Of a DNA stretch of 62,158 bases, positions 13,361 to 48,014 are shown piece after piece. Positions within the stretch are counted from its first letter, which is position 1, and every line of letters starts with the position of its first letter. The notes under the pieces were generated by a model. The model had not been told where the DNA came from and made no database searches. It saw only the letters and a program-made list of their open reading frames with translations. Source of the stretch: Streptomonospora mangrovi (GTDB lineage Bacteria; Actinomycetota; Actinomycetes; Streptosporangiales; Streptosporangiaceae); NCBI RefSeq assembly GCF_027604915.1, contig NZ_JAJAQC010000021.1, positions 1-62,158 on the forward strand. Reading direction: 5' to 3'. The position numbers were made by a program, and so were the translations under genes.

Positions 13361-13437
13361 CCGTTCGCTGAGGAGGCCGAGGACGGCGAGTCCTCGGGGC
13401 GACGGTCAACGGTCCGCACGCCAGTGGTGCCGCACCC

Positions 13438-13995
13438 GACGCGGGCGGCGACGGCGGTGGATGGTTCGGGCGCGCGGTGATCGGACCGCGCACCAGCGGT
13501 TGAGGTAGGTGACGGGGCGGCGAGGCGGCGGGGGCTGGGGGCTCGCGGGCGCCGAATCCGTCGTTCGCCCGCGGTTGGCGACTCCCGGCTCGTTCGCGAA
13601 CCGGGCAAGTCGGTCACCGCCCCCCGGGAATCTCACATGGTGAGACGAAAACAGCCTCTTTCACCACGAGGTGCGGCTTTCCATCGCCCTTCTGAACGGT
13701 AGAGCACTTTCGTCAGCCCCAGAATCAGGCATAGCGAACATAAGGGCGTCCATTCTGCCCCGAGCATCTCACCATGTGGACGCTCAGGCCCTCCACAAGC
13801 CCTTCCGGGGCCGCCGGGGCCGACTTTGTCAGCGACAAAACGGGCAAACGATGAGGAATCGCGGCGCCGAGCGCAGACGAGATGCGAGTTCTGTTCACCC
13901 GCCCCCTCCACCGGCCACCCGGAGCGGAGACCGAGCCATGGACCCCCGCCGCGCCCGTCGCCCACCCCGGCCACCCGCCCCGCGACCCGATGACC
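13438..13995 (-). repeat. dispersed repeat, copy 1 (inverted relative to copy 2)
   Basis: The reverse complement of this 558-bp block aligns with 46531-47079 at about 95 % identity by hand, with one 1-base and one 8-base length difference. It contains the AT-richer core at 13634-13778 and a small hairpin TTTGTC-AGC-GACAAA at about 13825-13839. No transposase is present. Function unknown. Confidence 0.9.
13634..13778. repeat. 145-bp core with 12-bp inverted ends (copy 1)
   Basis: CACATGGTGAGA at 13634-13645 is repeated as its exact reverse complement at 13767-13778. The 121 bases between are markedly less GC-rich than the surroundings. The core has the same length and ends in copy 2 (46748-46892). 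It resembles a MITE or a structured RNA unit, but no target-site duplication is evident. Confidence 0.75.
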
Positions 13996-14170
13996 GCGCG
14001 CCCGAGGCATCCGCTGCCCTCGCCGCCCCGTCGCCCGCCCCGGCCGTCCGCCCCGCTGGCCGATGAACGCCTGTCCGGACCCGCGCCGCCCTCGCCGCCT
14101 CGTCGCGGCCCCGGCCGTCCGCCCTGCTGACCGGTGGCCGCGCGCCCGAGCCCTCGGCCGCGCTCACCAC
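13996..14170 (+). repeat. degenerate ~71-bp tandem repeats beside copy 1
   Basis: About two and a half units, each beginning like CTGACCGATGACCGC and ending in CCGTCCGCCCTG, run in tandem; the clearest 71-base unit is about 14056-14126. The same unit family flanks copy 2 on both sides. Confidence 0.6.
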
Positions 14171-14244
14171 CACCCATCACCCGCGCGCTCGCCGGGCGCT
14201 TCGTGTCGGCCCATGCGCTTCCCGCCCGCTGCGGGGTGGTCGCT

Positions 14245-45494: not shown

Positions 45495-46241
45495 ATGTGG
45501 GTCGACCGCCTCGCGCGCGAGATCGGCGCCTTGGGGCAGGCCGAGAACGCCACCCCGGAACGGGCGCTGGACCAGATGAGCGCTGCGGCGGCCCGCGCCG
45601 TGCCCGGCTGCTCGGCGGCGCTGGTGGTGATCTGGCGCGACGTCGGCGCCGACTCCGCGCCCGCGGCCGGGCGGCACGTGGTGGTCGACTACGGCGCCTC
45701 CCACCCCGATCTGGCCACCGCCTTCGAGCACCAGTACACGACCGACGAGGGACCCACCGTCGAGGCCGTGCGCGACATGCGGCCGGTGGCCGTGGGCGAC
45801 GTCCTGCGCGAAAACCGCTGGCCCAACTACACCAGCATGGCCGTGCAGTGCGGCGACCGCTCCTCGGTGACCTTCCCCTCCGAGTTGGAGGGCGAGGTCG
45901 TGACCTTCGGGGTGCACGCCGTGCGCCCCGACTCGTTCGACGAGGCGGTCGTCACCCCGGTGGTGGCGCTGCTGGCCGAGCACGCGGCGTCGGCCCTGCA
46001 CAGCGCCGACCGCTACACCGACGTCGCCCGCGAGGCCGCCCACATGCGCCGCGCCATCACCGTGCGCGCGGTGATCGACCAGGCCAAGGGCATCATCATG
46101 CACGCCCGGGGATGCGACGCCGCCGAGGCGTTCGAGGAGCTGCGCCGGGTCGCCCAACGCAACCGCCTCAAGGTCGCCGACGTCGCCCGCAGCCTGGTGG
46201 CCGAACACGCCCAGCACGCCGACACGGGCGGCAGCCGCTAG
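45495..46241 (+). CDS. GAF-ANTAR transcription antitermination regulator
   Basis: 248 residues. A GAF domain (about 10-175) with YTTDEGPTVEAVRDMRPVAV is followed by an ANTAR domain (about 180-240: MRRAITVRAVIDQAKGIIMH, then the conserved Ala and aromatic-hydrophobic positions in DAAEAFEELRRVAQRNRLKV). ANTAR proteins bind paired RNA hairpins and prevent termination. The ATG has AAGGGGA eight bases upstream. It is divergent from a PAS-GAF protein, suggesting a sensor-effector pair; the RNA targets are unknown. Confidence 0.92.
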   Translation: MWVDRLAREIGALGQAENATPERALDQMSAAAARAVPGCSAALVVIWRDVGADSAPAAGRHVVVDYGASHPDLATAFEHQYTTDEGPTVEAVRDMRPVAVGDVLRENRWPNYTSMAVQCGDRSSVTFPSELEGEVVTFGVHAVRPDSFDEAVVTPVVALLAEHAASALHSADRYTDVAREAAHMRRAITVRAVIDQAKGIIMHARGCDAAEAFEELRRVAQRNRLKVADVARSLVAEHAQHADTGGSR

Positions 46242-46317
46242 AGCGCCGGCAGACGTGTACCTGGGTTTGGCCCTGGTCCTGGTCCTGGTGCTGGTCCTGT
46301 CCTGGGTCTCGGCTCAG

Positions 46318-46530
46318 GCAGGCGGTCACCGGCCAGCGGGGTGGGTGGTCGGGGTGGGCGGCGAGGGCGGCGGAGGGCTCGGGCGCGCGGTCATCGGTCA
46401 GCAGGGCGGATGGTTGAGGTAGCGGCGGGGCGGCGACGGCGGCGCGGGTCCGGACGGGCGGTCATCGGTCAGCAGGGCGGATGGTTGAGGTAGCGGCGGG
46501 GCGGCGACGGCGGCGCGGGTCCGGACGGGC
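46318..46530 (-). repeat. 71-bp tandem repeat array, left of copy 2
   Basis: GGTCATCGGTCAGCAGGGCG recurs at 46389, 46460 and 46531, exactly 71 bases apart; the units at 46389-46459 and 46460-46530 are practically identical, and a diverged unit precedes them from about 46318. Read on the minus strand, each unit begins CTGACCGATGACCGC, like the units on the other side of the core. Confidence 0.85.
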
Positions 46531-47079
46531 GGTCATCGGTCAGCAGGGCGGGTGGCCGGGGTGGGCGACGGGCGCGGCGGGGGTCCATGGCCTGGTCTCC
46601 GCTCCGGGTGGCCGGTGGAGGGGGCGGGTGAACAGAACTCGCATCTCGTCTGCGCTCGGCGCCGCGATTCCTCATGGTTTGCCCGGTTTGTCGCTGACAA
46701 AGTCGGTCCCGACGGCCCCGGAAGGGCTTGTGGAGGACCTGAGCGTCCACATGGTGAGATGCTCGGGGCAGGATGGGCGCCCTTATGTCTGCTATGCCTG
46801 ATTCTGGGGCCAATGAAAGTGCTCTACCGTTCAGAAGGGCAATGGAAAGCCGCACCTCGTGGTGAAAGAGGCTGTTTTCGTCTCACCATGTGAGATTTTC
46901 GGGGGGCGGTGACCGACTTGCCCGGTTTGCGAACGAGCCGGGAGTCGCCAACCGGGGCGAACGACGGATCCGGCGCCCGCGAGCCCCCAGCCCCCGCCGC
47001 CTCGTCACCTACCTCAACCGCTGGTGCGCGGTCCGATCACCGCGCGCCCGAACCCTCCGCCGCCGTCGCCGCCCACGTC
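46531..47079 (+). repeat. dispersed repeat, copy 2
   Basis: This 549-bp block is about 95 % identical (hand alignment) to the reverse complement of 13438-13995. Roughly 27 substitutions and two length differences separate the copies. The substitutions change residues in each of the three short open frames I compared, arguing against a protein product. Confidence 0.9.
46748..46892. repeat. 145-bp core with 12-bp inverted ends (copy 2)
   Basis: CACATGGTGAGA at 46748-46759 and its exact reverse complement at 46881-46892 bound 121 bases that are AT-richer than the surroundings. The length and ends are the same as in copy 1. Confidence 0.75.
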
Positions 47080-47330
47080 ACCACCCCGGCCGTCCGCCCC
47101 GCTGACCGGTGACCGCCTGCCGGGCCACCCGCTGCCGTTGGTGCCCCGTCGTCACCTTGGCACCCGCCCCGCTGTCCGGTGACCGCCCGCCCTGGCCGCC
47201 CGCTGCCGTCGCCGCCCCCGTCGCCCCCTCCGCCATCCGTCCCGCGACTCGATCGCCGCCTGCCCGGACCATCCGCCGCCGTCGGCGCCCCGTCGCCACC
47301 CTCACCATCCACCCCACCGATCGGAAAACG
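47018..47330 (+). repeat. degenerate 70-81-bp repeats, right of copy 2
   Basis: About four units can be aligned by eye, starting near 47018, 47099, 47169 and 47242, each opening with a CTGACCGGTGACCGC-like stretch and containing CCGCTGCCGTCG. They belong to the same family as the 71-bp units left of the core but run in the opposite direction. Confidence 0.6.
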
Positions 47331-47657
47331 CTTACCTCGCCTCGCACTCAGGACCTTGGTCACGTGTTGGCGGGCAGGTGTGTGACGCGTACCGCATCGC
47401 CCGCGCGCGCGGCGTATCAGTGTGGTCAAGGCAAAGACCGAATCCTGTATCGCCTACTGTTGTGCCGCTAGTGTTGACCGCAGCGGATTACCCCCGTGCG
47501 ACGCACCGGCGCGTGCGGCGGGGGCGAACCCGGCCCCGGCCCGCCGAGCGGGCGCGGTCGGCGATCCGGCGCGCAGCGCTTCCGAACCAGGGAGCTGGGC
47601 GGCGAGTGAGCGGATTTTCTGCGGCGCGCAGCGCCCCCCCGGCGAGTATCGAGGAGC

Positions 47658-48014
47658 ATGACTGTGGCATCGGATATCCCGGTGCGGGCCGAGGGCGACG
47701 TGGTCGTCGTCTCGCCCGCGGGCGAACTGGACGCCGTGACGTCCCCGGGGCTGGCCGACGTGCTGAACGACATTCTCGGCGACCCCGACTCCTACCGGGG
47801 CGTCGTAATCGACCTCTCCCAGGTGACCTTCTGCGACTCCCGCTGCATCGGCGTGCTGGTGTCGTCCTTCCGGCAGGCCCGCGACAAGGGCATCGGGCTG
47901 GCCCTGTCGGCGCCCCAGCGCACGGTGCTGCGGCTGTTCATGATCGCCGGGATCGACCAGGTCATCCCTATCGAGGAGGACACCGGCCACGCGGTGGAGT
48001 CGGTCCTGGCGTGA
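47658..48014 (+). CDS. STAS domain anti-sigma factor antagonist
   Basis: 118 residues, a single STAS domain of the SpoIIAA/RsbV type. It binds an anti-sigma factor when unphosphorylated and so frees a sigma factor. Seen: EGDVVVVSPAGELDAVTSPGL (12-32) and the loop around the regulatory serine, FCDSRCIGVLVSS, with Ser61. The ATG at 47658 has GAGGAG only one base upstream, while an in-frame GTG at 47664 is seven bases away, so translation may begin there. It is convergent with an RsbA-like protein that has the matching kinase fold. Confidence 0.92.
   Translation: MTVASDIPVRAEGDVVVVSPAGELDAVTSPGLADVLNDILGDPDSYRGVVIDLSQVTFCDSRCIGVLVSSFRQARDKGIGLALSAPQRTVLRLFMIAGIDQVIPIEEDTGHAVESVLA

Follow-up and report, generated by a model that had tools for sequence, protein, structure and literature searches.

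The window analysed here, a stretch of 62,158 nucleotides from the 6.36-Mb genome of the soil bacterium Streptomonospora mangrovi (G000), contains two copies of a composite repeat element in which arrays of ~71-bp units point away from a central core. Copy 2 spans positions 46311-47330; copy 1, whose core lies on the minus strand, spans 13378-14195. Their parts are arranged as follows:

Copy 2, 46311..46591, minus strand: left arm, about four ~71-bp units, outward (leftward)
Copy 2, 46636..46941, plus strand: conserved core (lower in G+C; aligned family length ~307 bp)
Copy 2, 46967..47330, plus strand: right arm, units of the left arm's family, outward (rightward)
Copy 1, 13378..13554, minus strand: arm left of the core in the window, corresponding to the right arm relative to the core
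Copy 1, 13585..13890, minus strand: conserved core, ~95% identical to the core of copy 2
Copy 1, 13931..14195, plus strand: arm right of the core in the window, corresponding to the left arm relative to the core

The original prediction described copy 2 as a symmetric composite with outward-facing arms around an AT-richer core. This description is borne out by the coordinates of arms and core, by the inverted relationship of the two arms (stretches of 77 and 49 nt, for example, are 78% and 90% identical, respectively) and by the G+C content, which is 0.80 in the left arm, 0.60 in the core and 0.79 in the right arm, against 0.735 for the whole window. The GC skew changes from +0.39 to -0.35 across the core, and the 71-bp units of the left arm follow each other at start-to-start spacings of 65, 71 and 71 bp, with 94% identity between the best pair. 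Copy 1 has the same plan, as proposed, with its core on the opposite strand. The suggested core length of 145 bp, however, needs correction, because conservation extends over about double that length; the figure corresponds approximately to the stretch between two inverted boxes at 46747-46760 and 46880-46896.

Copy 2 lies 33 kb from copy 1 in inverted orientation. The two copies are ~95% identical in the core and 90% identical over 762 bp, with outer arrays that are less alike, which makes copy 2 either a recent relative of copy 1 or a sequence converted by it. A nearby inverted pair of related elements is also found in the sister species (G003), where L156 and L157 (1.345 and 1.369 Mb) lie ~23 kb apart and share 88% identity over 1257 bp.

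Spread and inheritance of the element family

Both copies reported initially are real, and the genome-wide search proposed at the time extends them to a family. The window core had 24 matches in G000, including the window's own two (weakest E = 9e-7), and a consensus of the family core had 25, some of these core matches being halves or fragments. The array query produced 87 matches at E <= 10 and 67 at E <= 1e-3, whereas a single array unit used as an nhmmer query gave no match. Given the 24 core and 87 array matches, the repetition is not a product of chance.

We compared the window genome with five congeners (G001-G005), among them G003 and Streptomonospora sp. PA3 (G004). The family core consensus had 17 matches in G003 and none in G001, G002, G004 and G005, and the window core alone matched two of the 31 genomes searched, G000 itself and G003. 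The array query found matches in all six genomes (81 in G000, 67 in G003, 84 in G004, 42 in G001, 12 in G002 and 5 in G005), those of G002 and G005 being weak. Among 120 genomes of the family, array matches at E <= 1e-10 occurred in at least G000, G003 and G004 and, as a single weak match, in G012 from another genus, a genome count that is a lower bound because seven candidates were scored per genome. In a collection of 84,980 species (one genome each), from which near relatives of the window genome may be missing, a 33-base pattern from the G000 core had no match, and a 26-base pattern from the G004 core matched 49 stretches, all of them in strain PA3.

Elements in G000 measure 510-1350 bp by their detected arms. 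Those in G004 have ~72-bp units around an ~830-bp core and extend over ~1.6-2.5 kb by their alignment ends; eleven G004 copies are 82-87% identical to L113. In G001, a second array query had 82 matches, and a ~1-kb core is common to 18 of the 20 loci fetched. Cross-species profile scores lack a composition correction, and we therefore used only their contrast with shuffled sequences. The G001 core profile reached up to 183 bits on G004 loci (best shuffle, 93 bits), the G004 profile 79 bits on G001 (shuffle, 60 bits), and the profile of the G000/G003 core E = 2e-6 on G001 (shuffle, 0.04) and 8e-5 on G004 (shuffle, 0.014). The long G004 and G001 core profiles did not single out the G000 loci, with 54 and 94 bits, respectively, against 77 and 88 bits for shuffles. 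Elements in G004 and G001 follow the plan of the window copies, with cores that are longer and have diverged. As judged from sequence, the elements constitute a family of non-coding composite DNA elements that differs in presence between species and, a single weak array match aside, is confined to one genus.

Among the 24 core loci of G000, 21 possess both arms, two are interrupted by a foreign sequence close to the end of the contig, and one has no detected arms. At every one of the 21 two-armed loci, the left arm is of the minus type and the right arm of the plus type, so that both face outward regardless of core orientation. Twenty further array loci comprise 16 with one arm and four with both (again outward), and three of them (L081, L083 and L097) hold core fragments. 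Each arm is a tandem satellite array whose 70-73-bp units vary in number, and G004 also has dimers of ~144 bp. For 36 of 40 G000 arms (35 in a first run), the nearest neighbour at another locus lies on the same side of the core (permutation p, 0 of 5000), and this preference persists after trimming of the core-proximal 80 bp (33/37; 0 of 5000) or 120 bp (28/32; p = 0.0004). Because arms are side-specific across G000 loci, arm, core and arm travel as one unit, and this assembly behaves as a heritable unit in G000. In G004, side-specificity did not reach significance (10/16 and 11/16; p = 0.18 and 0.08). An element's own opposite arm is no closer than the arms of other elements (mean rank, 12.7 of 20), and homogenisation of the two arms was not found.

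The foreign sequence mentioned above is the same in both interrupted core copies (the ends of L016 and L023, aligned as L049 and L054). Its frame ends in ...LLNTRPRKTLGYRTPAEKLDELLVATTH, which is reminiscent of the C-terminus of an IS30-type transposase, and 39 of its residues had no Pfam or NCBIfam match. Candidates for the other halves of the interrupted elements are L083 and L081, which lie at contig ends (C30 and C89).

Occupancy of individual sites differs between species. At the site of copy 2, G003 has 48 bp between the flanking blocks, compared with 1100 bp in G000, and the site is 1.05-1.22 kb shorter in all five congeners, which lack the element. The site of copy 1 is 0.66-0.85 kb shorter in four of the five, which lack this copy, and G003 has a partial element. 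In a paired-flank test of 16 further loci, nine were collinear in G003, one (L010) was rearranged and six had one flank or none that could be found. Six of the nine collinear sites are 683-1246 bp shorter in G003 (L011, L020, L022, L024, L025 and L029); as for the others, L015 is shorter by 365 bp and L026 by 117 bp, and L014 is longer by 121 bp. Part of the shorter sites could reflect deletions. Matching of flanks between 44 G000 and 20 G003 repeat loci yielded nine pairs, four of them matched on both sides.

The elements occupy many intergenic sites, with neighbouring genes oriented much as in the background (8 convergent, 8 tandem and 5 divergent pairs versus 11, 20 and 11). A bias towards convergent genes (8/21 elements versus 11/42 window pairs, based on rough gene calls) was not supported. 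An even chromosomal spacing was not supported either: the spacing, examined at 16 core positions in G003 and 34 array loci in G001 (both collapsed from longer lists), was not distinguishable from random, that of G003 being more even than 93% of random draws. Neither spacing nor gene orientation thus indicates a specific chromosomal role.

Boxes and conservation of the core

The core contains repeated boxes in both orientations and at fixed spacing, with an inverted pair, P and P', and M-type and N-type boxes at several places. In copy 2, they include:

46640..46650, plus strand: box M1 (CGCATCTCGTC; in a variant left-end subfamily, CATGTCGACGGTATACAAG)
46747..46760, minus strand: box P' (CCACATGGTGAGAT), inverted partner of box P
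46782..46808, plus strand: box NA2 (family consensus CCCTTTTGTCCGCAATGCCCGTTTC), whose matrix also scores in G001 and G004 loci
46846..46874, plus strand: box M3 (family consensus CGCATCTCGTGGTGAAAGAGGC)
46880..46896, plus strand: box P (GTCTCACCATGTGAGAT)

At the left end of the core, for example in L051, L053, L055, L035, L045, L057 and L059, the alignment shows two subfamilies: one reads CATCTCGTCGGCGCG and the other, which has a GTATAC centre, CATGTCGACGGTATACAAG. L047, L049, L052 and L054, in which the left half is missing or replaced, were left out of the column alignment.

The aligned cores are nearly gap-free, with a ratio of substitutions to indel events of 78:1. In a rate test conducted without the near-duplicate L046, 21 of 307 columns were invariant, compared with 0.06 expected under a null model that assumes equal, independent rates and ignores relatedness, and conserved columns clustered along the core (lag-1 autocorrelation, 0.32; shuffle maximum, 0.15). 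At sites shared by G000 and G003, three core pairs differed in 30 of 231 conserved columns (13%) as opposed to 104 of 270 variable ones (39%; p = 6e-11), with conservation estimated after exclusion of the tested copies and, for copy 1, of its twin copy 2. The contrast holds for columns with an A/T consensus (9/95 versus 32/86) as well as for those with a G/C consensus (21/136 versus 72/184). An earlier, less strict test of all five shared-site pairs gave 44/382 and 210/471 for conserved and variable columns, respectively. The strict test omitted L028/L153, whose G003 core is partial (149 columns; conserved 4/37, variable 26/70), and L030/L157, whose members are at least as close to other copies as to one another (conserved 15/101, variable 68/110). 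For the pair L009/L147, orthology is based on one flank.

The threefold lower change of conserved columns at shared sites argues that the core is constrained in place, and constraint at individual sites is the simplest reading of these data. The main alternative is recurrent gene conversion among copies, which could mimic constraint, although four of the five shared-site pairs are mutually closest in a 5-by-5 comparison.

Eight box matrices were applied to the more distant relatives. Somewhere in the locus, the NA2 matrix scored above every shuffle in 17 of 20 G001 and 8 of 12 G004 loci. The N1 and N3 matrices did so in 14 and 13 of the 20 G001 loci and in none of the 12 G004 loci, and M2 in 5 and 0, respectively; M1, M3, P1 and P2 exceeded the shuffles in at most one locus each of G001 (20) and G004 (12). 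The plan and some of the boxes thus persist while the cores diverge.

The elements of G001 and G004 have further features of their own. In G001, cores (that of L260, for example) have a hairpin-like inverted repeat whose loop carries GGAATACGCTTACC or a variant of it; this motif is close to GGAAAACGCTTACC, which lies at 47323-47336, the right end of window copy 2. Some G004 elements (L117, L122, L123 and L124) have an extra stretch with a near-perfect 62-bp palindrome, whose centre, TTGTGAGCGCTCACAA, presumably resembles a symmetric lac-type operator.

Possible nature of the element and known systems

The element is an intergenic unit that occupies multiple sites and differs in presence between species, and its core is under strong box-wise and spacing constraint, also at sites that two species share. 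The explanation we favour, and to which we give somewhat better than even chances, is a family of non-coding composite elements that are rarely copied as a unit and whose core works as DNA, as a putative protein-binding platform. The lack of double changes in the P/P' helix and the negligible covariation term (see below) point to a function as DNA rather than RNA, and the repetition of boxes in both orientations and at fixed spacing is what a multi-site DNA-protein complex would require, from which we infer that the core is probably a platform for protein binding. The boxes P, M and N would then be predicted to serve as multiple sites for one or more sequence-specific proteins, and the strand-asymmetric arms may represent amplified ~72-bp satellites that came to flank the core. 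Unit copying would be rare and could proceed via a recombinase or transposase acting in trans or via repair-linked template switching, after which selection would retain the copies. A bolder version of this proposal, speculative and rather unlikely in our estimation, would make the element a bacterial analogue of satellite-flanked chromosomal sites, that is, a fast-evolving platform used by the host to bind a chromosome-organising or transcription-insulating protein, which has outward, strand-asymmetric arms of 72-bp satellite units, spreads as a unit and diverges into species versions across Streptomonospora.

A real possibility, albeit one that we consider rather improbable, is that the element is purely selfish, a non-autonomous foldback-type transposon with repeat-built inverted arms around a loop that is moved in trans and has no use for the host. 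Such an origin would agree with the outward inverted arms at 21 of 21 two-armed G000 loci, with the differences in presence and absence between species and with copy 2, which resembles a young inverted relative of copy 1 at a site that is empty in five of five congeners. It would also agree with the situation at L010, which exactly fills one breakpoint of a 7-kb inversion in G000 relative to G003 and G001, with nothing recognisable at the other breakpoint (L285, 4646-5680 and 12625-12873 on contig C21 of G000, compared with L286 and L287). A parallel exists in Drosophila, where copies of the foldback element Galileo are said to have caused inversions (PMC3573991, PMC4168063). However, the two arms of an element are unlike each other, as reflected in the mean rank of its own right arm, and side-specific, rather than near-identical as in foldback elements. 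Inspection by eye of 40 outer ends from 20 elements revealed no common end motif, and two candidate terminal motifs, GGAAAACGCTTACC, with which copy 2 ends on its right side, and CTAGATCTTCGAGG, which lies next to two further elements, proved not to be general ends. The junctions compared, whose flanking intergenic DNA has diverged, show no clear target duplication. Moreover, a transposase search by PF01797 (Y1_Tnp) alone identified no Y1 transposase in G000, G003 and G004 and had no match in G002, with matches above the cut-off in G001 (one) and G005. Finally, constraint in place is not expected of dead copies.

No transposase or integrase had been recognised in the element, and closer analysis agrees: the nine open reading frames of copy 2 have no Pfam match, and no core frame is open in all 28 aligned rows, each frame having stops in most of them, which excludes a coding relic. 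A phage or plasmid origin can likewise be discarded, given that a search of 50,697 phage and 72,556 plasmid records with positions 46600-47000 yielded no match.

A non-coding or regulatory RNA gene in the core, with the arms as mere surroundings, is very unlikely. Patchy conservation at fixed spacing is also typical of structured RNA, and the P/P' helix can pair in 88% of cells; shuffled sequences, however, reach 89%, and none of the 168 cells contains a double change. The covariance analysis suggested in the original prediction did not detect covariation: for 24 core copies, RNAalifold gave -7.3 kcal/mol with a covariation term of +0.04, and any double change was seen in only 2 of 15 predicted pairs. 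Rfam matches in the region 45800-47800 around copy 2 lay far below the thresholds, in line with the earlier statement that no RNA is recognisable, and a structured RNA was rejected on these two grounds. The neighbouring genes, in addition, have no shared orientation.

Ordinary local expansion of MIRU/VNTR-like tandem repeats in intergenic space, with the core as a chance conserved island, would account for tandem 70-73-bp arms of varying unit number and for the one-armed state of 16 of the 20 array loci beyond the first 24, but is hardly credible, being contradicted by the outward plan, which is fixed around a homologous core at 21 of the 24 loci, and by arms that are side-specific across unrelated sites. 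Scarcely more can be said for membership in a known kind of REPIN/BIME or MITE family: the elements are dispersed, intergenic and inverted in organisation, yet no defined terminal inverted repeats were seen, REP doublets as described in PMC3116915 do not match the elements in size, core or tandem arms, and three of the four element-rich genomes (G000, G003 and G004; G001 has one) are devoid of a Y1 (RAYT-type) transposase by the PF01797 search, which rules out a RAYT-driven REPIN there. The block did not turn out to be a known REP or MITE, a group II intron remnant or an Rfam RNA, any of which would have refuted the original prediction.

A search of the open-licence literature for a bacterial element with outward satellite arms around a core found none, in agreement with the initial impression that no named element has this plan, and in the portion of the Streptomonospora litoralis paper at hand (PMC8448680), both mentions of 'repeat' are unrelated to such elements. 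The favoured reading, a rarely copied composite element with a putative protein-binding core, can nevertheless be placed among known systems with which it shares individual traits.

MIRU/VNTR-type repeats are tandem GC-rich units between genes that vary in copy number. The arms of the Streptomonospora element are likewise tandem GC-rich intergenic units of variable number, but they form two outward arrays around a conserved core and are inherited with it. MITEs are non-coding, multi-copy sequences that are present or absent between relatives, and the same holds for our element, in which, by contrast, no end-defined terminal inverted repeat and no clear target-site duplication were detected. 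In REPINs, short REP sequences form doublets whose movement is attributed to RAYTs (PMC3116915). The Streptomonospora elements resemble them in being non-coding, intergenic, dispersed and inverted and in forming populations within one genome, but differ from that description in their size of ~1 kb, their tandem 71-bp arms, their core of ~300 bp or more and the lack of a Y1 transposase in G000, G003 and G004. The element also resembles eukaryotic foldback transposons such as Galileo and Tetris (PMC4079207), which share with it the long repeat-built inverted arms around a central segment, the occurrence at an inversion breakpoint and the link between satellites and transposons. Long inverted arms of tandem subrepeats were found at 21 of the 24 core loci. 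Unlike foldback transposons, however, the Streptomonospora element is bacterial, its arms are not homogenised, its core boxes are constrained in place, and no defined ends, clear target duplication or transposase (Pfam for copy 2; PF01797) were found.

The element thus resembles eukaryotic foldback elements but lacks features by which foldback transposons, REPINs and MIRUs are recognised. Intergenic DNA in bacteria is usually short, and the repeat families from bacteria compared here are, to our knowledge, small or reliant on a known enzyme. A satellite-armed, non-coding element of ~1 kb that is rarely copied yet constrained at its sites would stand between a selfish repeat and a chromosomal organ, and it may provide a tractable bacterial system for studying how satellite arrays form, travel and become useful.
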